Positions 9,302-43,139 of a stretch of DNA of 64,000 nucleotides are shown piece by piece. The first letter of the stretch is position 1. Each line of letters begins with the position of its first letter. The notes beneath the pieces were generated by a model. The model worked only from the letters and a program-made list of their open reading frames with translations. It had not been told where the DNA came from and made no database searches. Position numbers and translations under genes: made by a program. This DNA is from an uncultured Alphaproteobacteria bacterium (GTDB taxonomy: Bacteria > Pseudomonadota > Alphaproteobacteria > Rs-D84): contig CALXMA010000003.1 of NCBI GenBank assembly GCA_944389345.1, positions 53,093-117,092 of the forward strand, written 5' to 3'.

Positions 9302-9330
9302 TTGCAAATATTTATTTTTAACGATAACAT
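9302..9330 (+). promoter_or_regulatory. Promoter of structured leader 1
   Basis: TTGCAA, 17-base spacer, TAACAT. The -10 ends 9 bases before the first hairpin of leader 1, the same spacing as at the other four leader loci. Confidence 0.6.
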
Positions 9331-9339
9331 GATATTTGT

Positions 9340-9549
9340 GAATGGGTGTTCCATTCATGGGGTGTAACGACCTCTGCACACGCGTCGGAATATAATCTCG
9401 TGGCGCATCAATTGCGCTATTTTTACTATTACGACGAAAAACAAACTCCTGATTTTATGGGTCAGGAGGGTCGCGGAATATCAAATACGCGACACAATTC
9501 GTGTGATTGTCGTTAACCTCCTGACCACCAAATTTTGTTGGTGGTTTTT
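9340..9549 (+). promoter_or_regulatory. Structured leader RNA 1 with terminator (attenuator-like)
   Basis: Order of parts: hairpin GAATGG/CCATTC (9340-9356); left arm (9359-9385); A = CTCCTGA (9446-9452); A' = GGTCAGGAGG (9460-9469); hairpin GTCGCG/CGCGAC (9470-9493); hairpin ACAAT/ATTGT (9494-9510); second A = CCTCCTGACC (9517-9526); intrinsic terminator ACCACCAA/TTGGTGGT plus T run (9524-9549). The right arm 9490-9526 is the inverted copy of the left arm. A' can pair with either A copy, and the second A shares ACC with the terminator stem. TCAGGAG recurs as the ribosome-binding site (9564-9570), complementary to A. Ligand or partner unknown. Confidence 0.75.
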
Positions 9550-9578
9550 CATTTCGAAAAACATCAGGAGTCCAGACA

Positions 9579-10115
9579 ATGAAAACAAATTTTATATTAC
9601 ACATTGGGATATTTGCGATACTAACCACAATACCCAACATCGCCAATGCAATTGGCATCGGTGGTACTGGTTGTATTCAAGGCCCCGGCATGACTTGCGA
9701 ATGTTCTGGTGGAAGCAACGCTGGTGCAACATGCACGGTAAATTCACAATGCCCTGGTGGAACATGCGTAAACGTCGGCGGCGGTATAACGCCGCCCACC
9801 CTTTGCACCCCAGAAAACTGCAAACCGACCACAACCGGTTGGGGTTCATGCGGTGTTGGCGCCAATTCGTATGTCGAATGCGAAGCAACCGCCGAATGCG
9901 TGAACAATTTGTGTGTACGTGGCCAAAATTACCGTTGTGTTGCCGGCGCATACGGCAACCCCAGCGCATCAAACGAAACCGCCTGTGCACCATGCCCATC
10001 ACCCGGAACATCGGCCGCGGGTTCGACCAGTCAATCCGATTGTTATATTCCGGCCGGAACCACCGGGTCGGACAGTACGGGCACGTATAAATATACGGCC
10101 AATTGTTATTACTGA
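9579..10115 (+). CDS. Secreted cysteine-rich protein, CYIP...NCYY family
   Basis: 178 residues, not a family I can name. The signal peptide is about 1-25 (N-I-A-N-A cleavage region). The mature part has about 20 cysteines and is rich in Gly, Thr, Pro and Asn. It ends in C-P-S-P-G-T-S ... C-Y-I-P-A-G-T-T-G-S-D ... N-C-Y-Y. The same ending occurs at 21226-21834, 31315-31581 and 42272-42889. AGGAG lies eight bases before the ATG. It is expressed behind leader 1 and ends at its own terminator. It is probably exported and disulfide-bonded; function unknown. Confidence 0.85.
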   Translation: MKTNFILHIGIFAILTTIPNIANAIGIGGTGCIQGPGMTCECSGGSNAGATCTVNSQCPGGTCVNVGGGITPPTLCTPENCKPTTTGWGSCGVGANSYVECEATAECVNNLCVRGQNYRCVAGAYGNPSASNETACAPCPSPGTSAAGSTSQSDCYIPAGTTGSDSTGTYKYTANCYY

Positions 10116-10132
10116 TGCATTTCCCCCAAAAA

Positions 10133-10161
10133 ACATTCCCCCATCTTGGGGGAATGTTTTT
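10133..10161 (+). terminator. Intrinsic terminator of cysteine-rich gene 1
   Basis: ACATTCCCCC/GGGGGAATGT with a short loop and five T. The hairpin and its flanks are nearly identical to the terminator at 21862-21887. Confidence 0.92.
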
Positions 10162-10199
10162 GTTATTACGCGCGCATATATGGGGTACGCCAATTTCAT

Positions 10200-10226
10200 A
10201 AAAAAATCCCCATTTCGGGGATTTTT
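10200..10226 (-). terminator. Terminator of ccrM (bidirectional)
   Basis: ATCCCC/GGGGAT hairpin with T-rich tracts on both strands, ten bases beyond the ccrM stop. Confidence 0.88.
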
Positions 10227-10235
10227 CACAACACC

Positions 10236-11336
10236 TTATGCAACCTTCTTCATATCGCGCTTTACATCACGTATGTATTTACGCAATTCATCAATTGGCA
10301 CCTGGGTCCCATCACGCCGTTCCGCAGACCAATAATCCCATCCGTTAAAACTGACACAATGTTGCAAACGCGCGGCCATAACATGAATAGATGCCTTGCC
10401 CATCAACGGATGCACCAATTGTCCATCACGTGCAATCATGACACGTTCACCACGCGGACTGACCAAAGTCTGACCAACATACAGCAACCCTGCCTCGATT
10501 AATTCCTTGAACGCGACGCGAATTTCGGCGCGTTTTGGTGTGGCCACCTCAATCCCAGACAAATCAATGGGCTTTACCGCATCAACACGCGCACGTGCGG
10601 CGGCAACATAATCTTCTTCCCGTTCAATACCGATAAAATTGCGCCCCAATTCCTTGGCCACGGCGGCGGTTGTACCACTGCCCAAGAACGGGTCCAAAAT
10701 AACATCCCCCTGGCGGGTTGACGCCAAAATCACCCGACGCAATAAATCCATAGGCTTTTGAGTATTGTGCAAACTTTTACCATCAGAATCTTTGACACGT
10801 TCTTCGCCCAAACAAATATTTATATTCCAATCAGACCGCATCTGTTTGCCACCATTTAACTTTTTCATTGTTTCATAGTTAAACGTGTACTTACCGGTCT
10901 TACGTGGTGTTGCCCATATTAATGTTTCGTGCGCATTCGTAAAACGTGTCCCGCGGAAATTCGGCATAGGATTAGTTTTAACCCACACAATATCATTCAA
11001 AATCCAAAATCCCAAGTCCTGTAAAATCGCACCAACGCGGAAAATATTATGATAACTGCCGATGACCCACATTGCCCCATCGGGTTTCAACACGCGCTTG
11101 CATTCTGCCAACCACGCCCGCGTAAATTCATCATATTCGGCCATACTGCCAAAAGAATCCCACGAATCCCGAACGGCACGCGCCGCGGTTTGATCTTCGG
11201 GCCGATACAGTGTCTTGGCCCCCAATTGCAAATTATACGGTGAATCTGCAAATACGGCATCCACAGATGCATCTGGTATTCCGCGCATCAGTTCCACGCA
11301 ATCACCGGTCAAAATCTGATTCAGGTATTTTTCCAT
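10236..11336 (-). CDS. ccrM: CcrM-type adenine-N6 DNA methyltransferase (GANTC)
   Basis: 366 residues, the length of alphaproteobacterial CcrM. The enzyme methylates adenine in GANTC after replication and controls the cell cycle. Motif IV is D-S-P-Y at 31-34 (usually D-P-P-Y), and the SAM-binding motif D-P-F-L-G-S-G-T-T is at 215-223. Highly conserved family blocks W-V-I-G-S-Y-H-N-I-F-R-V-G and N-P-M-P-N-F-R-G-T-R-F are present. The C-terminal ~95 residues form the RAMA-like DNA-recognition domain typical of CcrM rather than of orphan Dam enzymes. Divergent from nrdR across 169 bases. The D-S-P-Y change is unusual, but the fold is intact. Methylation of GANTC is inferred from family membership. 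Confidence 0.95.
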   Translation of the reverse strand: MEKYLNQILTGDCVELMRGIPDASVDAVFADSPYNLQLGAKTLYRPEDQTAARAVRDSWDSFGSMAEYDEFTRAWLAECKRVLKPDGAMWVIGSYHNIFRVGAILQDLGFWILNDIVWVKTNPMPNFRGTRFTNAHETLIWATPRKTGKYTFNYETMKKLNGGKQMRSDWNINICLGEERVKDSDGKSLHNTQKPMDLLRRVILASTRQGDVILDPFLGSGTTAAVAKELGRNFIGIEREEDYVAAARARVDAVKPIDLSGIEVATPKRAEIRVAFKELIEAGLLYVGQTLVSPRGERVMIARDGQLVHPLMGKASIHVMAARLQHCVSFNGWDYWSAERRDGTQVPIDELRKYIRDVKRDMKKVA

Positions 11337-11505
11337 CTCTCTCTGGTCTCAACCAACATTTTACCACAAAACGCCCCTATTAAAAATTGACCGGCACCCC
11401 GCGGGAACAAATAAAGTTCTTGATTTTTATAAAAAACGCATTTTTTTGGATTTTGCGCCCACATTAAATTCTGCTTTACAGTTTGCATTTTGACTGCTAC
11501 CGTAT

Positions 11506-12012
11506 ATGGATATGAGATGTCCATATTGTAATTCTACTGACAGTCGCGTGACTGATTCCAGACCCGATACCGAAGACGCCATTATTCGGCGTCGCCGTGT
11601 TTGCAATCAGTGTGGCGCCAAATTTACGACCGTAGAACGTGTACAAATGCGCGATCTGATGGTCCGTAAAAACAGCGGAAAGTTAGAGGCATTTGACCGC
11701 GAAAAACTGCGTCGCAGTATAAAATTGGCGTGTCGTAATCGTGATGTCGGTGATGAACAGATTGAAAAACTGGTAACATCCATCCATCGCCGTCTGGAAA
11801 CAGAAACGGCCGACGACACGGTAACCAGTGCCTTGGTTGGCCAAATGGTATCAGATTCATTATTGAACCTGGACCCGATTGCATTTGTACGCTTTGTATC
11901 CGTATACCGCAAATTTTCGCGGATTTCGGATTTCAAGAAAATCATCGACCAAATACCCGAGGCTGATGATGATGCATCGGTATGCAAATTGCCCAAGACA
12001 TCACTATTCTGA
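11506..12012 (+). CDS. nrdR: Transcriptional repressor NrdR
   Basis: 168 residues. It represses ribonucleotide reductase genes in response to ATP/dATP. The N-terminal zinc ribbon has C5, C8, C33 and C36 (C-P-Y-C ... C-N-Q-C), followed by an ATP-cone (~48-138). The canonical family start M-R-C-P corresponds to the ATG at 11512; the ATG at 11506 adds two residues and neither has a strong ribosome site. The lytic transglycosylase starts six bases after its stop, so they are probably co-transcribed. Confidence 0.96.
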   Translation: MDMRCPYCNSTDSRVTDSRPDTEDAIIRRRRVCNQCGAKFTTVERVQMRDLMVRKNSGKLEAFDREKLRRSIKLACRNRDVGDEQIEKLVTSIHRRLETETADDTVTSALVGQMVSDSLLNLDPIAFVRFVSVYRKFSRISDFKKIIDQIPEADDDASVCKLPKTSLF

Positions 12013-12018
12013 TAATCT

Positions 12019-13749
12019 ATGAAAAAACTTTTCACATTTTTAATAGCACTGTTTTTGCCAATGGCCGCCATTGGGGCGGACCTGCCTAACATAGACGTAC
12101 TGTCTGATGCCGACGCCAGTTTATATACACAAATATTCCTGTTACAATCCCAAGAAGAAATCAGCGCGGCACAAAAACTGGAAGAACAACTGACCGATCC
12201 CCTGTTAATGAATGAAGTTTTGTATCAGCGCTATATTTCTGATACATACCGCACACGCGGTCGCGAAATAACCGCATGGATGGAAAAATACTATGATATG
12301 CCGGGGGCGGAACGCATGGTAAAACTGGCCAAAATTAAACAGGCCACCGTGCGCAAGGCGTCTGTTCCCCGTTCTATCAGTGGCGGTGCATCAATTGAAA
12401 CGGCCCAATCAGAAACATGGACGGCGAAAAAATACACTGGTGAAACAAATACCAAGATTAACAAGTTCAAACGCGCCATACGCAGTGGCGCAACAAAAAC
12501 CGCCCGTTTGATTCTAGAAGACGCGTCTTTACGCAAAAAATTAACAGAATCTGACTATGGTCGTCTGGCCGGACGATTGTCATTTATATATTACACAAAC
12601 GGTGAAACAGAACTGGCCAAGAAATGGGGTTTTGTGGCGGCCGATGCAAAATCAGAATACGGCCTGTGGGCGATGGGATTGCTGTATTTCCAAGAAGAAA
12701 AATTCGACGAAAGTGAAAAATATTTCAGTGCTATATTAGACCTGGAACAGATAAACAACGCCCGCAAGACCGAGGCCGCATTTTGGGCTGGTCGTGCCGC
12801 ATACGAAAACGGCGAACGTTCCCAGGCAAAAAAGTATTGGAAAATCGCAGCCACATATCCAATGGCGTTTTATGGCGCATTGGCGTCCGTAATGCTGGGG
12901 CACACACCACGATATGAATTCTTTGAACAAGACTGTACCGACGAAGACATAGACACACTGCGCGAAAGCAAATATGGAAAACGCGCGTTGGCACTGTTAC
13001 AGGTCGGCCAAAAAGATCGCGCCGAATTATACTTGAAATATATGATAACCGCGCGCGTATCAGATAAAACATTGCACGCAATAAATTCTGTGGCGACGGC
13101 GTACGGCCTGCCCCGTGTGTCTATCCAGGCATCCAGTCTGGTCCAAGACCGTGGCATTTTGGAAATTGATGACAATATTATATATTCCGCACAATATCCC
13201 CTGCCAGATTGGGAACCGATGGGCGGTTGGTCAATCGATCGCGCATTACTGTTGGCCATCACAAAACAAGAAAGTGGTTTCCACGCAAACGCAAAATCTG
13301 GCGCGGGCGCGAACGGTCTGATGCAAATTATGCCCAGTACCGCCAAGCGTGTTGCCCGTGAAAACCAGGTTGATATGTCTGAAATAGATATGTCTAAACC
13401 CGAACACAATATGTTCTTGGGTCAACAATATATCGTGGATTTACTGGCGCACCCGAACATCAACAATAATATTATAAAAATGTTGGCGGCATATAATGCG
13501 GGCATGGGCACCATGGTTGAATTTGAAAAAAACTTTGAAACATACGACCCATTACTGTACATAGAAAGTTTCCCAACATACGAAACCCGCAGTTATATAA
13601 AGCGCGTTATGTCTAACCTGTGGTTGTATCGCGCCCGTTTGAACCAACCGTTAACCACTATGAAAGATTTGGCAGACGGTGAATGGCCATTGTATAACAG
13701 CGAAGACGAATACGTGCAAAAGCAAATCGCCGACCGCATGTCAATTTAA
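12019..13749 (+). CDS. Soluble lytic murein transglycosylase
   Basis: 576 residues. It cleaves the MurNAc-GlcNAc bond of peptidoglycan in the periplasm, forming 1,6-anhydroMurNAc. A signal peptide is at 1-20 (A-A-I-G-A). An alpha-helical superhelical part with TPR-like repeats (~40-390) is followed by the SLT domain. The catalytic acid is Glu418 in K-Q-E-S-G-F, then G-L-M-Q-I-M-P-S-T-A and A-A-Y-N-A-G. The layout matches E. coli Slt70-type enzymes (family 1A). Linked to nrdR by a six-base gap. Confidence 0.94.
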   Translation: MKKLFTFLIALFLPMAAIGADLPNIDVLSDADASLYTQIFLLQSQEEISAAQKLEEQLTDPLLMNEVLYQRYISDTYRTRGREITAWMEKYYDMPGAERMVKLAKIKQATVRKASVPRSISGGASIETAQSETWTAKKYTGETNTKINKFKRAIRSGATKTARLILEDASLRKKLTESDYGRLAGRLSFIYYTNGETELAKKWGFVAADAKSEYGLWAMGLLYFQEEKFDESEKYFSAILDLEQINNARKTEAAFWAGRAAYENGERSQAKKYWKIAATYPMAFYGALASVMLGHTPRYEFFEQDCTDEDIDTLRESKYGKRALALLQVGQKDRAELYLKYMITARVSDKTLHAINSVATAYGLPRVSIQASSLVQDRGILEIDDNIIYSAQYPLPDWEPMGGWSIDRALLLAITKQESGFHANAKSGAGANGLMQIMPSTAKRVARENQVDMSEIDMSKPEHNMFLGQQYIVDLLAHPNINNNIIKMLAAYNAGMGTMVEFEKNFETYDPLLYIESFPTYETRSYIKRVMSNLWLYRARLNQPLTTMKDLADGEWPLYNSEDEYVQKQIADRMSI

Positions 13750-13798
13750 TAAAAATTGTATTTTATTCCGCCGATAATCGTGATACTGTGTGGTGGAT

Positions 13799-20980: not shown

Positions 20981-21197
20981 GAACCTGAACGGATATCGGG
21001 TTCGGGACTTCGAAAATCCCTTACAATGTCGGCGTTATGCGTCGTTAATCCAAAATGGCTTACTTATGCCATTTATCCCGACTTTGGTCGGGTTGCCACA
21101 GACATACAACAGAACACACGTGCGTTCAAAATCTGTGGGGTCATTACATTGTATGATTTTTCGAACTTCCCGACCACCAGGTTTTTGGTGGTTTTTG
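20981..21197 (+). promoter_or_regulatory. Structured leader RNA 2 with terminator (attenuator-like)
   Basis: Parts: hairpin GAACC/GGTTC (20981-21003); left arm (21004-21028); hairpin AATGGC/GCCATT; A = CCCGAC (21077-21082); A' = GGTCGGG (21086-21092); P2 CCACAGA/TCTGTGG (21096-21138) whose loop holds ATACAACAG; P4 TCAT/ATGA (21141-21156); second A = CCCGACC (21169-21175); terminator ACCACCA/TGGTGGT and T run (21173-21197). Right arm 21147-21171 is an inverted copy of the left arm. GGGAA of the ribosome-binding site is complementary to TTCCC of the right arm. Same order as leader 1 with different paired sequences. Confidence 0.8.
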
Positions 21198-21225
21198 TTT
21201 ACACACAAACAAAGGGAAACGAAAA

Positions 21226-21834
21226 ATGAAAAAATCATCACTGCTAATCATACCATCGATAATGATGGGAATATTAACAATCCCCAACACGGCATTTGGA
21301 TTAATTACAACCTGTAATCGGGTAGGATGTATGCCATCGGATCCCAGCATCCAAGTCCGGGGCATAAATTGTGCAATGTCAACCGCCACATGTTGGAGCA
21401 ATGGCACCCACAAAACGGGTGTTGAATCATGCACAATCTGCGAAAGTGGATATACCAAGGTATCCAAATCAACGATCCTAAGCTGTGGGAGTGGTACGGT
21501 AACCGCGACATATAATACATGTTTACCCACCTGTACCACTTCAAATTGTAAAAGCGACACGTCATGGTCGGCCGCGGGCACGGGATATCAAAAAAAGGCG
21601 AACCGTTCATGTTCCGACAGCACCACATGCAAAACCACATATTCATATCGTTGTGCGGCGGGATATTATGGTTCTTCGTCAAACGGAACATCCGGGTGCA
21701 ATCCATGCCCCAGTGGCGGCACATCATCCGCGGGTACAACATCTGCAACGGGTTGCTATATTCCATCGGGGACCACGGGTTCTGATTCCACGGGTACGTA
21801 CAAATATACATCCAATTGCTATTGGAAGAATTAA
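21226..21834 (+). CDS. Secreted cysteine-rich protein, CYIP...NCYY family
   Basis: 202 residues, family unnamed. A signal peptide of about 22-25 residues is followed by a mature part with about 20 cysteines and many Ser, Thr and Gly. It ends C-P-S-G-G-T-S-S-A-G ... C-Y-I-P-S-G-T-T-G-S-D-S-T-G-T-Y-K-Y-T ... N-C-Y-W-K-N, close to the protein at 9579-10115. Ribosome site AAGGGAAA, ten bases upstream. Expressed behind leader 2. Presumed exported and disulfide-bonded; role unknown. Confidence 0.85.
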   Translation: MKKSSLLIIPSIMMGILTIPNTAFGLITTCNRVGCMPSDPSIQVRGINCAMSTATCWSNGTHKTGVESCTICESGYTKVSKSTILSCGSGTVTATYNTCLPTCTTSNCKSDTSWSAAGTGYQKKANRSCSDSTTCKTTYSYRCAAGYYGSSSNGTSGCNPCPSGGTSSAGTTSATGCYIPSGTTGSDSTGTYKYTSNCYWKN

Positions 21835-31314: not shown

Positions 31315-31581
31315 TCAGTAATAGCAATTACCAGAATACGTGTACGACCCGGATCCATCGGACCCAGATGTCCCGGACGGTATATAGCAACCACTGATGC
31401 CGGACGTACCGCCATCGGACGCACTGCCGGGCGACGGACACGTCGCGCAATCGCCACTTGCCAGGTAATATCCCGAATTACATGATGAATACGTTTTTGT
31501 TGTTGCCGTACATGCACCGTACGCAACATTTGCCACGCCACACATTGCAACGATGGCAGAAAACAAGAATAACTTTCTCAT
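31315..31581 (-). CDS. Small secreted cysteine-rich protein, CYIP...NCYY family
   Basis: 88 residues from the ATG at 31581. Signal peptide ~1-21 (V-A-Y-G-A). The mature part is little more than the family ending: C-P-S-P-G-S-A ... C-Y-I-P-S-G-T-S-G-S-D-G-S-G-S-Y-T-Y ... N-C-Y-Y. It is thus the minimal form of the family. Its start overlaps the stop of the upstream gene (ATGA), so the pair is translationally coupled behind leader 3. Confidence 0.85.
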   Translation of the reverse strand: MRKLFLFSAIVAMCGVANVAYGACTATTKTYSSCNSGYYLASGDCATCPSPGSASDGGTSGISGCYIPSGTSGSDGSGSYTYSGNCYY

Positions 31582-31955
31582 GATATGCCCCCTGTACACG
31601 CCAAGCACGATATTGGTGACGGCGGATTTGATGTTACTCCGTAACATGCATACGTGGTGGTGGTTGGTGCACACGTACCGTAATTTTGCGTATACGATCC
31701 CTTGGAATCAGAACCACTGGTGGCGTCGCGACGACATTCGTCATACAAAACGTTATACGACCACCCTGTTGGACAAGTATAACTTGTTCCCTGTTTACCA
31801 TTCGGACAACAATATGACCCCGATCGGCAACTCGGAGAGCGCACACAAGTTTGCACGCTCATACATAACGTTGGCATTACCGCCCCAGCGGGCATTATGG
31901 GAACAGTCAGTGTTGCGAACACAACGGCCGTCCCGGCGATTAGATATTTTTTCAT
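31578..31955 (-). CDS. Small secreted cysteine-rich protein behind leader 3
   Basis: 125 residues. Signal peptide ~1-25 (P-A-G-A). About ten cysteines. A segment S-G-S-D-S-K-G-S-Y-T-Q-N-Y-G-T-C resembles the G-S-D ... N-C-Y-Y ending of the family, but here it is internal. The ribosome site is an unusual GGGGGA four bases before the ATG, complementary to ATCCCC of leader 3. First gene of a two-gene operon. Confidence 0.83.
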   Translation of the reverse strand: MKKYLIAGTAVVFATLTVPIMPAGAVMPTLCMSVQTCVRSPSCRSGSYCCPNGKQGTSYTCPTGWSYNVLYDECRRDATSGSDSKGSYTQNYGTCAPTTTTYACYGVTSNPPSPISCLACTGGIS

Positions 31956-32009
31956 TTTATCCCCCATTGTTTTAATAACCCGTCCGTCCAGACACCCAGA
32001 CGAACGAAA

Positions 32010-32243
32010 CAAAAAACCGCCCATGAATTGGCGGTCGGGGATTTGAAAAATCATAAAAGAAAATGACCCCGCGATTTTTAGGGATTGCCCCCTGTTATAT
32101 AGTCGCAGATCCCCGACACTCATGTCGGGTGATAAAACACACGGCGCACACGCGCCGACGTTTTCTTGTCGGATTCAGTACTGAATTAATCAGCACAGTT
32201 CTTTTACAGGATTTTCAAGTCCCTGAGCCGGCGTCCCCGCCAG
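32010..32243 (-). promoter_or_regulatory. Structured leader RNA 3 with terminator (attenuator-like)
   Basis: Minus strand, 5' to 3': hairpin CTGGCG/CGCCGG (32243-32228); left arm (32223-32194); A = CCCGACA (32129-32123); A' = TGTCGGGGAT (32118-32109); P2 CTGCGA/TCGCGG (32108-32069) with ATATAACAG and a GGG/CCC hairpin in its loop; P4 TCAT/ATGA (32066-32051); second A = ATCCCCGACC (32042-32033); terminator ACCGCC/GGCGGT plus T run (32035-32010). The right arm (32065-32037) is the inverted copy of the left arm. P2 pairs remain complementary to leader 2 and 4 counterparts by covariation. Confidence 0.8.
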
Positions 32244-32253
32244 TTCAATACAA

Positions 32254-32282: not shown

Positions 32283-32283
32283 T

Positions 32284-32338: not shown

Positions 32339-35300
32339 TTAAAAATCATATCTGAATTTCAACATACCTGTGTGCGACGTATAATCTTGGTGCAGATCCA
32401 GGTCATAGTTGACCGATATTTCCCACCCGTTATACAGCGCGGCCAATCCGATACCGAATTCGCCACCGAACCGCGACAGACGTTCACCCGGCATTACGTA
32501 TGAACCAATACCTGGGATATCAACTGTTGCGATTGATTCGTCTGACATAAAGTCATACGTTGCGGCCGCACGCAGTTCTGGACGGAACAACCAATCCGAA
32601 CCCGATTCGATTGTGAACGCATACTTTGCGCCAATCACACCGGTCAGATAATCATAGCTGGCATCAGATACCGCGCCCAACACGGAATTATAACCGTCTT
32701 GTGCGATATGCAGGTAACGGACACCGACCTCTGGCGTCAGACCGAACGCCATATCATAACCGCCCATCAATTGACCACCGAACGAATCGACATCATATTC
32801 TTCGTCATGTACGATACCAAACGCGGCCACTTTGTTGGTATAGTTGGACATTGTATAGTTCAACGTACCATTAACGTACCACTGATTTGGTTTATACTGG
32901 CCATACACGAACAAACTGTTGCTGGTGATATCAACATCGTTCTTGGCTTCGACATCAGATTCGTTATACGCGTATCCGATACCGATTGTGTATTTATCCG
33001 CGATTAACGCATCTGCACCGACGGCAATACCCATTGTGTCGCCTGTAAATTCATCCGCATATTTAGAATGATTATACAGACCCTGGGCCCACACGCCGTA
33101 TTCAGCATTTGCGAAATCACCACCGTTGCGTCCTGCGACCATTGCGCCACTCATACGGTTTGTTGCGACGGACAGAACCTGGTTCTGGACAGATGTCGCA
33201 ACAGATTGCGCCACGGGCTTATCCTGGGGCAACAATTTGGCCGTACCAGTTTCGACGTATTCGGTATCACCACGCGCCAACGCTTCTTGTACGTTCAGCG
33301 CCGCGATATTCAACGTGTCGTCTTGGCTGGACATCAATCCGGTCAACACAGCTGCCGCATTGGACGAAACACCGTTGTTTTCGGCAATTTCCGCCACCGA
33401 TTTCAACGATACAACCATGTTGTTATCTTCATTGAATTTAACATTGTAAACGGAATCGTTATATGCGATTTTGGCCTCTGGCACCGTAACACCAATGTTA
33501 TACGTACCGACCGAACCCAACATCAGATCCAACACACCGTTTTCACCAACGACAATGTTTTCTGTCTGAATCTTTGCGAACGATTTTTCATTTACAATTT
33601 GCGCGGCCAACGTACCATTCAATGCAATCTCAGATTGCTGGATAGATGTTGTACCAATGCTTAACGTTGCGCCATCTTTAATGGTCAGATTACCGGTTCC
33701 GGTAATACCGCCACCCAACTTGGTCACACCACCACTGATAACCAGCGAACCTTCATTATGGATGTCGTTTGCAACGCCCGCGGCCGTATTGCCACTGAAC
33801 AAGTTTTCACCGTCCAGAACAATGTTACCACGTCCGTTATTGTAAATGGCACCCCCCTGTTCACCGGCCTTGTTTCCGGTAAAATCGGTGTTTTTTAACG
33901 TAATGGTCGCAATGGCGGTGCCATCTGTATCCTGTGGCGCAACGTTTGCAATTGCACCGCCAATCTTATCTGCGCGATTGCTATTAAATTCAGAATCATC
34001 AATCAACACAATATTACCGGCGTTAACAATTGCACCGGCCAACTTACCTTCATTTTTTTGGAACGACACGTGCGATATCTTGTCAATCACGCCCGCGTTG
34101 TAAATGGCACCACCGGCATTGCCCGCAACATTGTGCTTAAACTCAACCAGTTTCGTATTTGCAAAAGATAATGTTGCACCCTGTTCATTCCAGATTGCGC
34201 CACCAAAATTTGCATTGTTGTCTTCAAACAACATACCATCGGCAATCGTGGTTTTCACAGTATTGAAAATCGCACCACCGTTTGCCTTGGCAATGTTGGT
34301 TTTGAATTCAGAATCAGACAATGTCAACGAAGACACCTCGGAATCTGCCCCCATACGTGTTGATATTGCACCACCGTATGTGCCAGATTCATTACCCGTG
34401 AATGTGGAACCACTGATGGTTGTGTTGGATTCGTCGTACAAGAATATTGCACCGCCACCACCATTGGCATCCAACACGGGTTTGCCTGTTTCTACAACCT
34501 TTGTACCGGTTGTTTTATTTCCGGTAAATGTTGAATTTTTTACAACCAACGTTGCATCAGAAACAACCGCACCCCCTTCGGCACCGGTCTGGTTCTGGGC
34601 AAATGTGGAACCATCGATAGTCATTGTTGCGGTTGAACCGTTCTCCTGCAAAATGGCACCACCGGCAACTGTCGAATCATTCTTTTCAAACGTAGAATTC
34701 TTGATATCTACCGTACCCGTGACACCACTGCTTATAAACAGGGCACCACCACCAGCTGTTTTATTTGTACTACCAATAGCGTGGTTTGTATCAAAAGTAA
34801 AGTTATCTAAACTTAACACCGCATCCGCATTTTTACCATTATATGCCAATGCACCACCCTGTGCGCCCGTATTGTTTTCAAACGTATACCCTGTACCCAA
34901 CGTAGCGTCATTATTAGCAATATACAGCGCACCACCTACTTGCGTGGATGTGTTTTCAGAAAACTTTGCATTGTTCCCCATCACAAACTTATCCGCACCA
35001 ACATTGATATTAATCGCGGCGCCACCTTTCTTGGAATTGTTCTTTGTAAATACAGCATTATCACCAATTTCCAAAGAACCGTTATTAAATGCCGATAAAG
35101 CAATTCCACCTGCATTTCCTGTAAATTCTGCACCATCGCCTATTTTAATTTCACCACCACCATAGACGGCCGCCCCGGTTAAATTACCAGAAAATTTAAC
35201 ATTATCACCAATCGTTAACTTACCTGCTTTATAGTCATTATAAATGGCTGAACCGTTCGCATTTGAATTTTCACTGAACACAGAACCATCTGCAATATTC

Positions 35301-36130
35301 AATGTACCAGAATTCCAAACTGCACCACCTTGTTTTGTTGCTTTGTTTCCTGTAAATGTTCCACCAACGTTCATGGTGCCAACATTATAAATCGCGCCAC
35401 CGTTTTTCGCACTGTTGTTTTCGAATGTCGATGTCGCGATATTAACTGTATTATTAAATTCCGTCGGATTGTTATCACTGTTCAAATTTGCAATTGCACC
35501 ACCACGATCCGCCGCCGTATTTCCGGTGAATTCTGATGTGCCCAACGTCAACGTACTGGGCGTTTTAACGCCATTTGTCGAATCCGTCCAAATCGCAATC
35601 GCACCACCATCCGCATCGGTTGAATTGCTTGTAAACTTTGCATTATCGCCAATGGTTACATTACGTGCGGTTTCTATACCCAATGCACCACCCAACCAAG
35701 TGGAACTGTTGCCTGTAAACGTGGTATTTTTACCGAATACAACATCGCGGTTAATATTTTCCGGGTCAACACCAGTATATGATTCTGGAATCTTGACATA
35801 CAAACCACCAGACATTTTATCTGAATGATTGCCTTCGAATGTCCAACCATCGCCCGCCACAAATCCATTCAGTGCCTTCATCGCACCACCAGAATTCACA
35901 GACGAATTATTTTTGAACACAACGTTGTTCGCACCATCGGCCGATAATTTATCGCCATACGACAACGTTAACCCCGCCGCGTTCTGATTGGTTGAAACTG
36001 AATTTGTTTGATCTTCGATAACAGTATTACTGCTAATGTCTACCGTTGTCGCCATTGCGGGCATAATCGCCAACGCTGGCAACACCGAACACAATTTCAG
36101 CAAATCTGCCAAGTGTTTGTATGTTGACAT
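32339..36130 (-). CDS. Autotransporter adhesin with PMP-type GGAI/FxxN repeats
   Basis: 1263 residues. Signal peptide ~1-27 (M-P-A-M-A). The passenger (~30-900) repeats G-G-A-I/L and F-x-x-N at ~20-30-residue spacing more than 20 times, the pattern of chlamydial polymorphic membrane proteins, folding as a right-handed beta helix. The last ~270 residues form the autotransporter beta-barrel, ending in aromatic F (L-K-F-R-Y-D-F). The protein is exported by Sec, inserted in the outer membrane and displays an adhesin-like passenger. AAGGAG precedes the ATG. It is expressed behind leader 4, the only non-cysteine-rich gene in that set. No cleavage motif is obvious. Confidence 0.93.
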   Translation of the reverse strand: MSTYKHLADLLKLCSVLPALAIMPAMATTVDISSNTVIEDQTNSVSTNQNAAGLTLSYGDKLSADGANNVVFKNNSSVNSGGAMKALNGFVAGDGWTFEGNHSDKMSGGLYVKIPESYTGVDPENINRDVVFGKNTTFTGNSSTWLGGALGIETARNVTIGDNAKFTSNSTDADGGAIAIWTDSTNGVKTPSTLTLGTSEFTGNTAADRGGAIANLNSDNNPTEFNNTVNIATSTFENNSAKNGGAIYNVGTMNVGGTFTGNKATKQGGAVWNSGTLNIADGSVFSENSNANGSAIYNDYKAGKLTIGDNVKFSGNLTGAAVYGGGEIKIGDGAEFTGNAGGIALSAFNNGSLEIGDNAVFTKNNSKKGGAAININVGADKFVMGNNAKFSENTSTQVGGALYIANNDATLGTGYTFENNTGAQGGALAYNGKNADAVLSLDNFTFDTNHAIGSTNKTAGGGALFISSGVTGTVDIKNSTFEKNDSTVAGGAILQENGSTATMTIDGSTFAQNQTGAEGGAVVSDATLVVKNSTFTGNKTTGTKVVETGKPVLDANGGGGAIFLYDESNTTISGSTFTGNESGTYGGAISTRMGADSEVSSLTLSDSEFKTNIAKANGGAIFNTVKTTIADGMLFEDNNANFGGAIWNEQGATLSFANTKLVEFKHNVAGNAGGAIYNAGVIDKISHVSFQKNEGKLAGAIVNAGNIVLIDDSEFNSNRADKIGGAIANVAPQDTDGTAIATITLKNTDFTGNKAGEQGGAIYNNGRGNIVLDGENLFSGNTAAGVANDIHNEGSLVISGGVTKLGGGITGTGNLTIKDGATLSIGTTSIQQSEIALNGTLAAQIVNEKSFAKIQTENIVVGENGVLDLMLGSVGTYNIGVTVPEAKIAYNDSVYNVKFNEDNNMVVSLKSVAEIAENNGVSSNAAAVLTGLMSSQDDTLNIAALNVQEALARGDTEYVETGTAKLLPQDKPVAQSVATSVQNQVLSVATNRMSGAMVAGRNGGDFANAEYGVWAQGLYNHSKYADEFTGDTMGIAVGADALIADKYTIGIGYAYNESDVEAKNDVDITSNSLFVYGQYKPNQWYVNGTLNYTMSNYTNKVAAFGIVHDEEYDVDSFGGQLMGGYDMAFGLTPEVGVRYLHIAQDGYNSVLGAVSDASYDYLTGVIGAKYAFTIESGSDWLFRPELRAAATYDFMSDESIATVDIPGIGSYVMPGERLSRFGGEFGIGLAALYNGWEISVNYDLDLHQDYTSHTGMLKFRYDF

Positions 36131-36240
36131 ACGTTCTCCTTTTTTCTATTTCGGTTAAACATACCCCTCTGTCCAATAACGGTATCATAGTTAGGCGAAC
36201 TTGCAACAAAAATATTGTGGACAAGAATCAAAAAACTAAA

Positions 36241-36527
36241 AAATAATACCGCCATTATCAAAATATGGCGGTCGGGTGGGTTCAAAAATCACATAACAGC
36301 ATGACTCCGCCGATCTTTGGGAAACCTGAAAACATCAGGTCCGTTGCGTCCCTGTTGTATAACCGACGGCCCCCCGACCTGTACAGGCGGGGAATCAGCA
36401 CAATAAAAAACGCGCAACCGGCGCCCTAAAAAATATTGTGCCCGGATATACCAACATGCATATACAGGATATGCATATCGCTGTTATGTAGGGTTTTGAA
36501 ATCCCCGAATGCCACATTCCGATGTGG
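36241..36527 (-). promoter_or_regulatory. Structured leader RNA 4 with terminator (attenuator-like)
   Basis: Minus strand, 5' to 3': hairpin CCACAT/ATGTGG (36527-36512); left arm (36507-36479); hairpin region with GCGC/GCGC; A-A' hairpin CCCCGC-CTG/CAG-GTCGGGG (36392-36372); P2 CCGTCG/CGGCGG with ATACAACAG and an ACCTGA/TCAGGT hairpin inside; P4 near TCAT (36304-36286); second A = CCACCCGACC (36279-36270); terminator ACCGCCAT/ATGGCGGT with T-rich tail (36272-36241). The right arm (36304-36274) is the inverted copy of the left arm, sharing ACATAACAGC. The longest of the five leaders, upstream of the autotransporter. Confidence 0.75.
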
Positions 36528-36537
36528 ATTCAGATAA

Positions 36538-39348: not shown

Positions 39349-39352
39349 AAAA

Positions 39353-39376
39353 AATCCCCCGTTTGGGGATTTTTAT
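39353..39376. terminator. Bidirectional terminator between convergent DUF1015 and ppiD genes
   Basis: ATCCCC/GGGGAT hairpin with A and T runs on both sides, so it can act for both strands. Confidence 0.88.
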
Positions 39377-40785
39377 TTTGCAAAAAACCGATTAAACAGT
39401 TTTTCGTTAACCTTTACCGGATATTCGCGAATCAAGAATGCATTATAATCATCCATCAACAATGGATTAATTGATTTTTCCAATTCTTTGCGAATATCTG
39501 CCATCTTTTTTTCATCTGTATCCGGCATTATTTCCCGTTCCACATGCAACACATAGAACGCATCACTGCCATCAACAATAGTGTTCGTTCCAACTTCGCT
39601 GTTGAACGCGGTTGACAACACATCCAACGGTGCCCCCGACGCACGTTTTGCAACAACTGTTTTTTTACCGTCCAATTTACCGGTTTCGTTCAAATCAACC
39701 AATAATTCGTTGGCGCGCACATATGCCTGCTTGCGCTGTTCGGCGCGGGTCCACCCATCAACCAATTCAGATCGCACCGAATCGAATTCTGCATTATGCG
39801 CCGGAACAACCTGATCAACACGAATGATTACAAAGCCTTTTTTGGTTTCAATCAATTCGCTTTCCAGTCCTTCTTCCATATCGAAAATACGCGCCATCAT
39901 ATTATCAGTCAATAAATCATCCACGGGCCGATGATCAACATCGAACGTCCCCAGCGCAACATATTTTGCATTATGCTTTTTCGCGCTGTCGGCCATAGAT
40001 TCACCGGCGATAATATCATCTTCGACCAAGATTGCGTTTTCATATGCCTCGTCATACTTATCAGGTTCGTCCATATCGGCCGGAATCAACACATACGACA
40101 CAGTACGCTGTTCTGGGACAACATGCGGATTTTGTTCATAGAACACACGCAATTGTTCTTCGGTGGGCGCCCCCACATCAAATTCATCATATTCAACGGT
40201 GGCATAGTCAATCTGGCGTTCGCTGTACCGTGCGTCATACGTGGCCGCGACGGCGAAATCTGGCACCGGCATCGGCACAGACGTCGCACCCAAAACATAC
40301 CCACGCAACACATCTTTTCTTAAAACATCTGCGAACATAGCCTCGCTGTACCCACTGCTGGCCAGCACATTATCAAACATCAATGTTGAAAATTCGCCAT
40401 TAGATTGAAATTCTGGGTACGCGCGAATTTCGCGTGCAATCTGGGCATCAGATACAACGAACCCCAAATCCATGGCGCGATTATCGGCCATTGCCTGTGT
40501 TGTTAATTTGGACAACACATCATTGTTCAACTGTTCCATCATCCCAGGATCGGCATAAACCGCCCGTTGTTCATCTTTGGACATCTGTGCCAATTGACTT
40601 GATTTTTCGGTACTAAAATCCTGGATACTGATTTCCACATCGCCGACGCGAACCAGTGTATCATCACCCGCGACGGACCCAAAAATCCATTCTGCGACAC
40701 CCCACCCAACGAACGAAAACGCCAAAATTCCGATTAAAACCTTGGCCAGCGGTTTATCCGCCGCATTACGTAAATATTCTAGCAT
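39373..40785 (-). CDS. ppiD: PpiD-like membrane-anchored periplasmic chaperone/isomerase
   Basis: 470 residues, shorter than E. coli PpiD (623). One N-terminal membrane helix (~14-36), a SurA-like chaperone region (~45-180), a diverged parvulin domain (~230-340) and a C-terminal helical part. PpiD assists folding of newly exported proteins at the Sec translocon. It is divergent from tpiA, an arrangement common in Alphaproteobacteria. It may help fold the many exported proteins of this window (inference). Confidence 0.87.
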   Translation of the reverse strand: MLEYLRNAADKPLAKVLIGILAFSFVGWGVAEWIFGSVAGDDTLVRVGDVEISIQDFSTEKSSQLAQMSKDEQRAVYADPGMMEQLNNDVLSKLTTQAMADNRAMDLGFVVSDAQIAREIRAYPEFQSNGEFSTLMFDNVLASSGYSEAMFADVLRKDVLRGYVLGATSVPMPVPDFAVAATYDARYSERQIDYATVEYDEFDVGAPTEEQLRVFYEQNPHVVPEQRTVSYVLIPADMDEPDKYDEAYENAILVEDDIIAGESMADSAKKHNAKYVALGTFDVDHRPVDDLLTDNMMARIFDMEEGLESELIETKKGFVIIRVDQVVPAHNAEFDSVRSELVDGWTRAEQRKQAYVRANELLVDLNETGKLDGKKTVVAKRASGAPLDVLSTAFNSEVGTNTIVDGSDAFYVLHVEREIMPDTDEKKMADIRKELEKSINPLLMDDYNAFLIREYPVKVNEKLFNRFFAK

Positions 40786-40853
40786 TTAATCCCCTTTTGC
40801 GATACCATAGCAAAACGATATCAAAAAAATCAACGAAAAAAAGGGGAAAATCA

Positions 40854-41558
40854 ATGAAAATTATCGCAGGTAATTGGAAAATGAATGGTTCACGCGACGC
40901 ACTGTCAAATATGATAACGGCACTGCGCGACGTGGACACAGAAAACACGATTATACTGTGCGTACCATACACAATGTTGGGCGTGGAATCTGATCGCGTC
41001 CACATGGGCGCCCAAGACGTCAGCGCCCACGACCATGGCGCATTTACTGGTGAAATTTCTGCCAATATGATTTCGGACACGGGCGCCAAATACGTCATCG
41101 TCGGGCACAGTGAACGCCGTGCATACCACAACGAAACAAACGACATCGTCCGTCAAAAGGCAACAATGGCATTATCAAATGGCCTGACACCCATTATTTG
41201 TGTTGGCGAAACGATGGACGAAAAACAGGCCGGGAAAACAATGGAAATCATTGAATCTGGGGTGCGTGAATCGGTTCCAACGGACGCGACGGGCAACATC
41301 ATCATTGCATACGAACCACGATGGGCGATTGGTGCGGGCCTGACCCCAACGGACACAGAAATTGCCACGGCACACAAATTAATCGCAGACACATTAACAT
41401 CAATGGGGCTGGGTGGAACACCCGTTTTATACGGCGCCAGTGTCAAGGGTTCAAACGCCGCCCAAATAATGTCGATACCGAACGTAGACGGTGTTTTGGT
41501 TGGTGGCGCATCCTTGAAACCGGACGACTTCATACCTATAATAACCAGTGTTAAATAA
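40854..41558 (+). CDS. tpiA: Triosephosphate isomerase
   Basis: 234 residues, slightly shorter than usual (~250). It interconverts dihydroxyacetone phosphate and glyceraldehyde 3-phosphate. Catalytic Lys9 in G-N-W-K-M-N, His85 in G-H-S-E-R-R and Glu154 in A-Y-E-P-R-W-A-I-G are present, as are the phosphate loop G-A-S-V-K-G and G-V-L-V-G-G-A-S-L. AAGGGG lies before the ATG. Confidence 0.97.
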   Translation: MKIIAGNWKMNGSRDALSNMITALRDVDTENTIILCVPYTMLGVESDRVHMGAQDVSAHDHGAFTGEISANMISDTGAKYVIVGHSERRAYHNETNDIVRQKATMALSNGLTPIICVGETMDEKQAGKTMEIIESGVRESVPTDATGNIIIAYEPRWAIGAGLTPTDTEIATAHKLIADTLTSMGLGGTPVLYGASVKGSNAAQIMSIPNVDGVLVGGASLKPDDFIPIITSVK

Positions 41559-41576
41559 TTGCTAAACTGTTTTTAC

Positions 41577-41601
41577 GGGGACGCTGGACGGATGCGTCCC
41601 C
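41577..41601 (+). other. Strong hairpin between tpiA and grpE
   Basis: GGGGACGC-n9-GCGTCCCC, a perfect 8-bp stem without a T run. It could stabilise the tpiA 3' end or control grpE translation. No CIRCE element is present. Confidence 0.5.
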
Positions 41602-41632
41602 ACAAGACACTGGAAAACAATGGGTATAAAAA

Positions 41633-42190
41633 ATGAATGACGATAAAAAAGTAAAAATAGACGCGGTTTCTGTAAACGACCCAACCCCGGCGGCCAACAC
41701 CGACCCGGACACAGACGCATCCACCCCAGATTCTGAAATCGACGACGCGGAACGCGTTGAAAAACTTAGTGCCCAGTTAACTGAATTAACCGACAAATAC
41801 CTGCGTCTGGCGGCGGAATTGGAAAACACACGCCGTCGCGCCGCACTGGACATGGAAACGGCCACACGCAACCGCGCAATGGCAATTGCAAAGAAATTCT
41901 TGCCCGTTATGGATGCCATAGATTCCGCAACATCACATAATCCCGATGACGAAGGAATTAAATCCATGCGCCTGGCGATGGAATCGGCGTTCGCCCAAAT
42001 CGGAATAACAAAAATAGAATCCCTGGGTCATGTTTTGAACCCCCAGTTTCATAACGCGATTCAGGTCATAGACGCACCCGCCGATGCGGATACCCGCCCC
42101 GCCCCGAACACAATTGTCCAAGAATTACAACCCGGATACATGTTTGGCGACACGGTATTACGTACGGCAATGGTCGTTGTCTGTAAATAA
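41633..42190 (+). CDS. grpE: Nucleotide exchange factor GrpE
   Basis: 185 residues. It releases ADP from DnaK and works with ClpB. Acidic disordered N-terminus (~1-38), long dimer coiled coil (~40-95) with Y-L-R-L-A-A-E-L-E-N-T-R-R-R, then the beta-wing domain with L-N-P-Q-F-H-N-A-I and P-N-T-I-V-Q-E-L-Q-P-G-Y. No dnaK or dnaJ lies beside it. A hairpin at 41577-41601 precedes it. Confidence 0.96.
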   Translation: MNDDKKVKIDAVSVNDPTPAANTDPDTDASTPDSEIDDAERVEKLSAQLTELTDKYLRLAAELENTRRRAALDMETATRNRAMAIAKKFLPVMDAIDSATSHNPDDEGIKSMRLAMESAFAQIGITKIESLGHVLNPQFHNAIQVIDAPADADTRPAPNTIVQELQPGYMFGDTVLRTAMVVVCK

Positions 42191-42206
42191 AAAATCATAA
42201 TAAAAA

Positions 42207-42235
42207 CAACGCGCGAATTTGCGCGTTGTTTTTTT
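42207..42235 (+). terminator. Intrinsic terminator after grpE
   Basis: CAACGCGC-GAATT-TGCGCGTTG followed by seven T. Confidence 0.93.
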
Positions 42236-42271
42236 GGGACGTGTGAGAAAACCCTGTAAAATCCGTTTTTG

Positions 42272-42889
42272 TTATTTGTAATAACAGTTCGCCGCATACT
42301 CGTACGAACCACTGGTATCAGACCCGGTATACCCCGACGGAATATAGCAAGATGTTATGCCGGATGCATTACGCGAACTGGTCCCCGGTGACGGACAAGC
42401 TTTGCATTCTCCATCTTCCCCCCGGTACTGACCTGGCAGACAAATACGCGCCATTTTCGTACAACCGGTACCATCCGCATTTTTTACGTACCCACGGTTA
42501 CATGTAAATGTGGTGCCACCCGGACATGTTGCATTTTCTGGACACCGCGTACATGGTCCCGACGCGCTGGTCGGACTGCCATACCACCCATATCCACACT
42601 CGTAACGTGTACCTGTCACGACACAGGTTGCCGTATTAACACAATTGTTACATGTCCACTGTCTGCTACGCGTTACATACTCGGTAACACCCGTGGAAAA
42701 ATCTGTTATCCCGTAACCATCTTTACAAGAATTACACCAAATCTCGCTGTTGCAATTACCCGAATACGAAACAGAATCGCACGTGATGGGACACATATTT
42801 GCACAACAAGAATATGCACCGTATGCATCATCTGACATGGGTAAAATTGCGATTCCCACGCCAAACATTCCAATTATCAGTTTTTTCAT
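42272..42889 (-). CDS. Secreted cysteine-rich protein, CYIP...NCYY family, TNFR-like repeats
   Basis: 205 residues from the ATG at 42889, preceded by AAGGAGG. Signal peptide ~1-22 (D-A-Y-G). About 25 cysteines. The middle contains TNFR/ephrin-receptor-like repeats: C-T-R-C-P-E-N-A-T-C-P-G-G, C-N-R-G-Y-V-K-N, C-L-P-G-Q-Y. The ending is C-P-S-P-G-T-S ... C-Y-I-P-S-G-Y-T-G-S-D-T-S-G-S-Y-E-Y ... N-C-Y-Y-K. Expressed behind leader 5. Presumed surface or secreted protein; role unknown. Confidence 0.86.
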   Translation of the reverse strand: MKKLIIGMFGVGIAILPMSDDAYGAYSCCANMCPITCDSVSYSGNCNSEIWCNSCKDGYGITDFSTGVTEYVTRSRQWTCNNCVNTATCVVTGTRYECGYGWYGSPTSASGPCTRCPENATCPGGTTFTCNRGYVKNADGTGCTKMARICLPGQYRGEDGECKACPSPGTSSRNASGITSCYIPSGYTGSDTSGSYEYAANCYYK

Positions 42890-42921
42890 TGCAAAACCTC
42901 CTTTTTTCATTTGCGCGAATG

Positions 42922-43101
42922 AAAAAACCGCCAAGATTTCAAAAGGCGGTTGGAGGCTTCAAACTATCATAGAAAAATAGCGGGCTTATTCAATATATTC
43001 GCCACCCTCCAACCCATATGGCTTGGAGTATCCGGACACGTTCACGCACGGCCCCTGCGTTCTATGCGAGGTTTGAAGTCCTCGTCCGGGGAATTCCCCC
43101 G
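42922..43101 (-). promoter_or_regulatory. Structured leader RNA 5 with terminator (attenuator-like)
   Basis: Minus strand, 5' to 3': hairpin GGGGAATTCCCC (43099-43088); left arm (43084-43053); outer pairing CCGGAC/GTCCGG; A = CTCCAA (43028-43023); A' = GGTTGGAGG (43014-43006); AT-rich core; P4 CTAT/ATAG; second A = CCTCCAACC (42956-42948); terminator AACCGCC/GGCGGTT plus T run (42951-42922). The right arm (42984-42953) is the inverted copy of the left arm, sharing CTTCAAAC and CATAGAA. CCTCC of the second A is complementary to the GGAGG ribosome site. Confidence 0.77.
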
Positions 43102-43110
43102 AACACATTA

Positions 43111-43139
43111 ATTTTAATATAAATTTTATTTTTAGTAAA
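43111..43139 (-). promoter_or_regulatory. Promoter of structured leader 5
   Basis: Minus-strand TTTACT, 17-base spacer, TAAAAT, about ten bases before the leader's first hairpin. Confidence 0.55.

Follow-up and report, generated by a model that had tools for sequence, protein, structure and literature searches.

Pseudoknotted leader RNAs before exported-protein genes of a gut alphaproteobacterium: a probable C4-type antisense attenuator with an sRNA-Xcc1-like 3' half

What do the structured leader RNAs do that recur upstream of exported-protein genes in a gut alphaproteobacterium? The question is raised by a stretch of 64,000 nucleotides (contig CALXMA010000003.1 of GenBank assembly GCA_944389345.1), called the window throughout, in which a sequence-only reading had described five attenuator-like leaders belonging to no riboswitch class it recognised and had taken them most simply to respond to a ligand, a protein or stress. 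They are named here W1 to W5 in their order along the window, W1 and W2 lying on the forward strand and W3, W4 and W5 on the reverse strand. The source genome measures 0.89 Mb in 23 contigs and is 98.8% complete; its genus, Candidatus Enterousia, belongs to the order Rs-D84 and has reduced genomes (PMC12306168). We consider it probable that the leaders are C4-type antisense attenuators working in cis, with a 3' half like the RNA sRNA-Xcc1, and that they both terminate transcription early and mask the ribosome site.

One anatomy in two sequence types

The same ordered parts are present at all five sites: a 5' hairpin, an arm, the pair A and A', a core, the inverted arm, a second A (A2), a terminator-like hairpin, a Shine-Dalgarno (SD) site and ATG. 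There is one anatomy and there are two sequence types, type I (W1, and W5 by score) and type II (W2, W3 and W4). Hidden Markov model (HMM) matches numbered 194, of which 160 passed filters for score, ends and duplicates and 3 of these were left unparsed. The covariance model R1 was built on 70 of 111 non-redundant type I fragments and R2 on 39 of 41 type II fragments (all but W4 and L210); W1 is among the sequences behind R1 and W2 and W3 are among those behind R2, while W4 and W5 contributed to neither, W5 being absent from both alignments. In a genome-wide covariance search R1 and R2 recovered all five leaders, and the five form one RNA family. A membership of five was too low, as the models find 18 R1 and 13 R2 distinct strong places in the source genome, 31 together (read in part by eye), besides one weak place (E 0.005).

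In both types the order is P1, H2 with its loop x1, y1, a variable domain, A:A', the P5 core, H6 with its loop y', x', A2, the terminator and the SD site. What had been taken for a simple arm is a short hairpin, H2; its loop, x1, has its pairing partner x' close to A2, and its stem reads GGGG/CCC or GAGG/CCUC in type I and GGGA/UCCC or GGGC/GCCC in type II. Since x1 pairs with x' and y1 with y', each hairpin loop is joined to the strand that follows the other hairpin, and the leader fold is a double loop-strand pseudoknot. The core has conserved nucleotides within each type, AAUAU..AAUA in type I and AUACAACAG in type II.

Covariation, first noticed by eye at five loci, is confirmed by the alignments. 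Over 70 type I leaders and 41 pairs, 96.6% of 2818 cells are paired, as against 36-46% when the partners are slid; both sides change in 25 of the 41 pairs, x:x' is 100% paired, and four of five covariation measures exceed all of 500 shuffles. The 33 pairs of type II behave similarly (89.4% of 1245 cells paired, 40-56% when slid, both-side changes in 19), and the four pair types found at single positions cannot have their source in one ancestral change. An exact complement of x' occurs in the leader's own 5' DNA in 139 of 157 leaders (28 of 2800 in other-copy controls) and one of y' in 132 of 157 (94 of 3074 with the loops of other copies); exact matching was used in place of a search allowing G-U pairs, which was saturated in the controls. 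Several of the misses come from leaders that are truncated, from longer loops or from G-U pairs, and a few are true mismatches (L149, for example). Related leader sequences are not independent observations, and with this understood a covarying, attenuator-like leader family before exported-protein genes is strongly supported.

The predicted outer signals fared unevenly. A sigma70-like promoter had been expected at each leader; a promoter-like site lies upstream on the correct strand at W4 and W5, and the consensus scan gave none at W1, W2 and W3, its 3 sites comparing with 2.1 (standard deviation, sd, 1.4) and 0.9 (sd 1.1) in shuffles. A TATAAT-like box stands before P1 in the type I alignment. 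Intrinsic terminators were called by scan at W1, W2 and W3; at W4, with a broken T run, and W5, with a 12-nucleotide loop, the hairpin is visible and lies outside the scan settings.

The segments A and A2 are near-copies, and each is complementary to A', which is GGUCAGGAGG in most type I leaders. The helix A':A2 (10 base pairs in type I) is paired in 98.1% of type I and 97.8% of type II cells, and its support is this conservation together with the change of the whole set between types (CCUCCUGACC, CCCCGACC, CCUCCAACC). The first GG of A' lies in the A:A' loop, is kept in 110 of 143 type I leaders and can pair with the CC that ends A2. In W1, W2 and W3 the last bases of A2, GACC, double as the foot of the terminator stem, so that the A':A2 helix and a complete terminator are mutually exclusive.

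A feature missed by the sequence-only reading is the pairing of A2 and x' with the region from the SD site to the start codon. The SD site, mostly (U)CAGGAG in type I and mostly GGGA or GGGG in type II, is complementary to the leader's own A2. Taken alone, A2 fits its own SD site better than shuffled sequence in 300 of 300 cases in type II and with z 1.7 in type I (14 of 300 as high). When x' is added, the pairing with the leader's own SD-to-start region is stronger than in swapped combinations (z -7.3 in type I and -4.1 in type II, 0 of 200 as low in each); if each distinct x' is represented by a single leader, 27 of 1000 are as low in type I (23 leaders) and 9 of 1000 in type II (18 leaders). 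The coding region and the reversed probe, used as controls, gave z -0.1 and -1.1 in type I and z -1.5 and -2.1 in type II. A rule chose the start codons for this and the downstream-gene test, with some errors (W4, L047 and L194 among them), W4 having been redone by hand. In the window the duplex of x'-A2 with the SD site reaches -14.0 kcal/mol at W1, -12.7 at W2, -11.4 at W3 and -14.2 at W5, and -2.2 at W4; four of the five leaders are thus complementary to their SD region and W4 is the exception. Such a partner of x' at the SD site (x2) is supported in Enterousia.

The 3' half and its relatives at phage loci

An Rfam 15 scan of the window returned only two tRNAs and matched no leader at gathering score. 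The statement that no known riboswitch class is present therefore holds at Rfam cut-offs; it does not extend to the 3' half of the leaders, which is a diverged relative of sRNA-Xcc1 (RF02221). The RF02221 model, of 87 positions, aligns to the half from A' to A2, at full length (1-87) on W2, W3 and W4, and its consensus fold is found there: a closing helix, a core hairpin, a second hairpin, and unpaired sequence ahead of the 3' closing strand. With its cut-off at 53 bits, the model scores 44.1 on L318, 43.8 on L319, 36.6 on L312 and 33.8 on L282, these being distant alphaproteobacterial homologues, and 29.8 on W2; its matches to W3 and W4 in the own genome are in Table 1, and W1 and W5 are missing from its matches there at E 0.01, for which 10 candidates were scored. 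We retained this match since it falls each time on the same part of the element, in W2, L282, L312, L318 and L319. Other weak Rfam matches (GcvB, isrK, STnc370, Phe_leader, ryfA, BSnc120, Leu_leader and anti-hemB) fell outside the leaders and were rejected.

With the leaders sRNA-Xcc1 shares the closing helix A':A2, the P5 core with AUACAA, the H6 hairpin and the x' strand. It differs in that Rfam describes a stand-alone small RNA (sRNA) comprising the 3' half only, with H2/x1, y1, A and the SD-side copies outside the model, whereas the window leaders have a terminator directly after A2 and exported-protein genes downstream. It has been detected as an 88-nucleotide RNA by Northern blot and end mapping (PMC2996969) and treated as an sRNA with predicted targets (PMC2996969, PMC12189769); in Xanthomonas integron cassettes it lies upstream of symE, and a divergent regulatory mechanism was suggested (PMC12444791). 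A full-text literature search for sRNA-Xcc1 together with antirepressor, with most subscription papers outside its reach, found no paper.

A phylum-wide search with RF02221 gave matches in 62 of 398 genomes (39 above the cut-off) and in 0 of 14 control genomes. At 30 of these loci the flanks were read with 26 probe bases, at least 11 bases being required for the strict count. The 5' half known from the leaders is there: the locus's own upstream DNA covers at least 11 of the 26 bases in 27 of the 30 loci, as against 101 of 870 swapped combinations, with a mean coverage of 15.6 bases against 4.7. Downstream, a second copy of at least 11 bases lies at the gene start in 15 of the 30 loci (34 of 870 when swapped), and mean coverage within 75 bases is 9.5 against 2.4. 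The 11-base count was preferred because a 6-nucleotide threshold, passed upstream and downstream by 29 and 24 of 30 loci, is common in swapped combinations as well (511 and 287 of 870).

Phage antirepressor and SymE toxin genes are among those that follow these loci. Of eight downstream proteins compared with Pfam, seven gave Bro-N (two), P22_AR_N, Phage_pRha, KilA-N and SymE_toxin (two), and one had no match; judged by eye, some 12 of the 30 genes belong to these kinds, and the rest encode short proteins of unknown function or are unclear. In Pasteurella phage Pmp1 the matching stretch extends into the start of a gene annotated as anti-repressor Ant; in Escherichia phage Rac-SA53 its end and ant are 71 bases apart, with ant downstream. 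At L344 about 1.4 kb separates the sRNA-Xcc1 locus from a match to the c4-2 RNA RF02944 (2890-2958, reverse strand, 34.8 bits, below its cut-off of 41), possibly two related antisense systems side by side.

A proposed switch and its rivals

The relation to RF02221, together with a layout that corresponds to the a1b1/a'b'/a2b2 segments of C4 RNA, argues for an antisense-RNA control system rather than a riboswitch. In the OFF state x1:x', y1:y' and A:A' would be formed, A2 would be free for the terminator and transcription would stop. In the ON state A' would take A2, the base of the terminator would be broken and the polymerase would read through. On the read-through mRNA a free x'-A2 could then occupy the SD-to-start region by pairing and prevent translation, as a' and b' of C4 do at their target, so that the downstream gene is likely kept off until the leader fold changes. 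The balance might be tipped by a cognate RNA acting in trans, by a protein or ligand, or by processing at A' of the RNase P kind. As to origin, we infer that a C4-type antisense module became an attenuator in cis and spread by amplification to exported-protein genes.

Several observations weigh against this account of the leaders. No window leader reaches the RF02221 cut-off, and the C4 model RF01695 is unmatched both in the window and at the 20 of 30 sRNA-Xcc1 loci scanned, for which reason we claim that the leaders work like C4 RNA and not that they belong to its family. The strict second copy at the gene start is missing in half of the sRNA-Xcc1 loci, and in Enterousia leaders a second partner of y' at the SD site (y2) was not found, own sequences doing no better than swapped ones. 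Within a type A':A2 is almost without covariation (39 of 500 shuffles as high in type I, all 500 in type II), and the count of further pair types in type I is not above shuffles (92 of 500 as high). Part of the SD-pairing signal may come from relatedness or composition, since the stretch just upstream of the SD site in type I also gives z -3.7 and the reversed probe in type II departs from zero as given above. The SD site of W4 lies about 93 nucleotides past the terminator-like hairpin and has no pairing with x'-A2; being so distant and unpaired, the W4 gene may be under its own promoter. The sequences, finally, are almost all from metagenome-assembled genomes (MAGs).

The main rival is a metabolite or messenger riboswitch, in which the pseudoknotted core would bind a ligand and one expression platform (A, A', A2, terminator and SD site) would serve some 30 mostly surface-protein genes. 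A compact pseudoknot, core nucleotides conserved per type, the 1-2-3-terminator anatomy and the many exported targets would all suit such a switch. Yet the core sequence differs between types I and II, whereas the pairing segments persist, and some relatives stand before antirepressors and SymE toxins and repeat the pairing segments where the gene begins, a feature for which a ligand switch has no use. The riboswitch is without positive support, and we regard it as unlikely.

The genes after the leaders bear on another rival. All five window proteins pass a simple signal-peptide rule, in line with the first description, and across the family a signal-like N-terminus (simple hydrophobicity rule) is found in 178 of 184 downstream proteins, compared with 141 of 358 background open reading frames (ORFs), which still include leader genes; 12 of 196 proteins, shorter than 40 amino acids, were left out. 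In other alphaproteobacterial families Pfam places the leader before two DNA methyltransferases, a helix-turn-helix (HTH) regulator, an outer-membrane barrel and a Bro-N protein, and by sequence judgement alone it precedes pilin-like proteins and glycosyltransferases. In relatives of Enterousia two type II leaders (L140, 7676-7918, and L087, 3715-3968) stand before genes without signal peptides, and the start of the L140 gene (a 19-residue stub, judged by eye) resembles a cytosine-C5 DNA methyltransferase. Near W5 the window also holds an ORF of 1264 residues (43729-47523, reverse strand), the size of the W4 autotransporter, with no R1 or R2 match upstream; ARAGORN calls a tRNA-Arg within it (44828-44904, reverse strand), which is probably false because Rfam does not have it.

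These genes would be mere passengers if the leader were the precursor of a trans-acting sRNA like sRNA-Xcc1, with the terminated transcript as the product. The detection of sRNA-Xcc1 as an 88-nucleotide RNA (PMC2996969) agrees with such a precursor, as does the terminator-like hairpin that every window leader has of its own. It is nevertheless improbable, given that signal-like starts are so strongly enriched directly after the terminator and that the SD region pairs with x'-A2 of its own leader, which implies that leader and gene co-evolve.

Table 1. Positions in the window of the five leaders, their parts and the genes that follow (+, forward; -, reverse strand)
Feature	Position	Strand	Evidence or remark
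W1 leader, type I, P1 hairpin to terminator end	9338..9549	+	R1 match E 5.2e-50
W1 5' half	9359..9382 (H2 9359-9374, loop x1 9365-9371, y1 9377-9382)	+	covariation, 70 aligned leaders
W1 segment A, partner of A'	9445..9452	+	A:A' paired in 99.0% of type I cells
W1 sRNA-Xcc1-like module	9460..9526	+	corresponds to W2 part aligned by RF02221; no RF02221 match on W1 itself
W1 module parts	A' 9460-9469; P5 core 9470-9493; H6 with loop y' 9494-9510	+	
W1 module parts, 3' side	x' 9509-9516; A2 9517-9526	+	
W1 intrinsic terminator	9523..9549	+	terminator scan; first four stem bases GACC are the end of A2
W1 SD-to-start region, x2 candidate	9563..9581	+	complementary to A2
Gene after W1, 178-residue predicted exported Cys-rich protein	9579..10115	+	no Pfam match
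W2 leader, type II	20981..21196	+	R2 match E 2.3e-33; terminator scan
W2 parts	P1 20981-21003; H2 21004-21020; y1 21023-21028; A 21077-21082; A' 21086-21092	+	
W2 parts, 3' side	P5 21096-21138; H6 21141-21156; x' 21157-21165; A2 21167-21175; terminator 21172-21196	+	
W2 SD-to-start region (GGGAAACGAAAAATG)	21212..21228	+	complementary to A2 and x'
Gene after W2, 202-residue predicted exported protein	21226..21834	+	no Pfam match
W3 leader, type II	32011..32246	-	R2 match E 1.2e-37; RF02221 38.2 bits, E 1.4e-5; terminator scan
W3 parts	P1 32225-32246; H2 32208-32223; y1 32199-32206; A 32123-32129; A' 32109-32118	-	
W3 parts, 3' side	P5 32069-32110; H6 32051-32066; x' 32043-32050; A2 32033-32042; terminator 32011-32036	-	
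W3 SD-to-start region (ATGGGGGATAAAATG)	31953..31968	-	6 nucleotides complementary to A2
Gene after W3, 125-residue predicted exported Cys-rich protein	31578..31955	-	no Pfam match
W4 leader, type II	36238..36532	-	R2 match E 7.2e-26; RF02221 34.4 bits, E 1.1e-4
W4 parts	P1 36507-36532; H2 36490-36506; y1 36481-36488; A 36384-36392; A' 36371-36381	-	
W4 parts, 3' side	P5 36307-36370; H6 36289-36304; x' 36279-36288; A2 36270-36278; terminator-like 36238-36273	-	
Gene after W4, 1263-residue autotransporter with polymorphic-membrane-protein repeats	32339..36130	-	PF03797 E 1.6e-34; PF02415 E 1.4e-32
W5 leader, scores with type I model, A a CTCCAA variant	42922..43104	-	R1 match E 1.4e-12
W5 parts	P1 43084-43104; H2 43068-43083; y1 43060-43066; A 43020-43028; A' 43006-43014	-	
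W5 parts, 3' side	P5 42980-43005; H6 42964-42980; x' 42957-42964; A2 42948-42956; terminator-like 42922-42951	-	
Gene after W5, 205-residue predicted exported Cys-rich protein	42272..42889	-	no Pfam match

The leaders are numerous well beyond the window. A BLAST search with W1 gave seven further copies in the own genome, each followed by terminator-like sequence, an SD site and ATG. Within the genus R1 has matches in 55 of 59 genomes, with as many as 46 in one genome, and within the order R2 has matches in 85 of 96 genomes, from 11 of 17 genera; across the class R2 is found in 30 of 385 genomes (23 of 276 genera) and R1 in 10 of 289. The contigs with the leader pattern, as judged from 80 of at least 116 stretches, are mostly alphaproteobacterial MAGs from animal guts, several of them Candidatus Enterousia. 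Two sets of hits were taken as chance: an R1 match in G191 from the class search, which is coding DNA without leader anatomy, and four pattern-scan hits in non-alphaproteobacterial or unplaced records (L080, L084, L092 and L138), which have no HMM match. A type I leader on a 3.1-kb contig binned as Prevotella (L175, 2981-3095, reverse strand) probably reflects a misbinned MAG contig. Another, on an IMG/VR viral contig (L188, about 10407-10570, reverse strand), may mean that the element is still phage-borne, or that a prophage or host stretch was counted as viral. Elsewhere in the own genome (contig C14) a copy 90% identical to W1 over the 3' part has lost the 5' half (P1, H2/x1 and y1) and retains A to terminator with a W1-like gene (L002), a natural deletion that could reveal the role of the 5' half.

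An attC site carries R and L boxes and an extrahelical base and lies 3' of the cassette ORF. For all their copies per genome, and the integron cassettes that carry sRNA-Xcc1 in Xanthomonas (PMC12444791), it is very improbable that the leaders are a mobile repeat of the attC or MITE kind, with hairpins for recombination and brought near genes by insertion, since they lie 5' of genes in a fixed placement relative to terminator, SD site and ATG (in the leaders read), their copies diverge rather than being identical, and compensatory changes maintain RNA-style pairing, G-U pairs included.

The antisense attenuator has a more speculative extension, namely that a phage immunity RNA was domesticated as an addressable control of surface proteins, each of the roughly 30 copies having its own x and y and each gene being silenced by its own address. 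We offer this tentatively. The per-copy x and y pairs are likened to the heteroimmunity groups of phages P1 and P7, where a difference of 4 nucleotides suffices to separate the specificities (PMC5320573). The basis is the x/y differences within genomes: no pair of type I leaders in the same genome shares both x and y (0 of 330, against 43 of 11760 between genomes), and all 32 within-genome pairs with cores at least 90% identical differ in x or y. The orthogonality is not significant, with 0 of 236 without collapsing identical copies and 0.32 expected from within-genome shuffling. One identical pair (L017/L031, genome G005, 70% complete) had been collapsed beforehand, and one assembly, present under both its G handle and its accession, was left unmerged. 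If the extension holds, copies sharing an address would cross-silence, and a reduced-genome gut bacterium would display an RNA code for its surface proteins.

The proposal of a cis attenuator joins sRNA-Xcc1, the control of phage antirepressors by C4-type antisense RNA and a large leader family of reduced-genome gut Alphaproteobacteria. If it is true, what is annotated as sRNA-Xcc1 would be the 3' half of a cis leader whose targets can be predicted, and Enterousia would be a case of a phage-type RNA module controlling a large repertoire of exported proteins.

Likeness to attenuators, IsrK and C4 RNA

Transcription attenuators work by competing 1:2, 2:3 and 3:4 pairings. The leaders resemble them in that A:A', A':A2 and the terminator pairing of A2 are mutually exclusive; they differ in having a pseudoknotted antisense module between segments 2 and 3, and no leader peptide was noticed in them.

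A second likeness is to IsrK of the Salmonella prophage Gifsy-1 (RF01394), where a promoter yields a short RNA with its own terminator, an antirepressor gene lies downstream, and the read-through mRNA is translationally inactive through alternative folds (PMC4825925). The short RNA of that system activates translation in trans. Rfam scans of the window and the leader loci gave no RF01394 match inside any leader.

The closest comparison is with the C4 antisense RNA of phages P1 and P7, whose loops a' and b' bind at a ribosome site and upstream of that site, and which RNase P releases from a longer transcript by cleavage at a GGW motif (PMC5320573); PMC2864571 lists a c4-a1b1 motif. The Enterousia leaders differ in lacking the second b-type copy (y2), in having a built-in terminator and in their targets, mostly predicted exported proteins. 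The likeness lies in the upstream a1b1 copies complementary to a'b' (x1:x' and y1:y' in the leaders, and 27 of 30 sRNA-Xcc1 loci), in the order of the segments before and after the RNA, in the predicted ribosome-site target, and in the antirepressor genes among the targets of the sRNA-Xcc1 relatives. It extends to the ends of the module as well: A' mostly starts with GGU (GGT in the DNA of 115 of 155 type I and 24 of 43 type II leaders), to be compared with the GGW processing site of C4 (PMC5320573), and A2 is followed by ACCA in 72 of 156 type I leaders and by ACCA or GCCA in 31 of 43 of type II.

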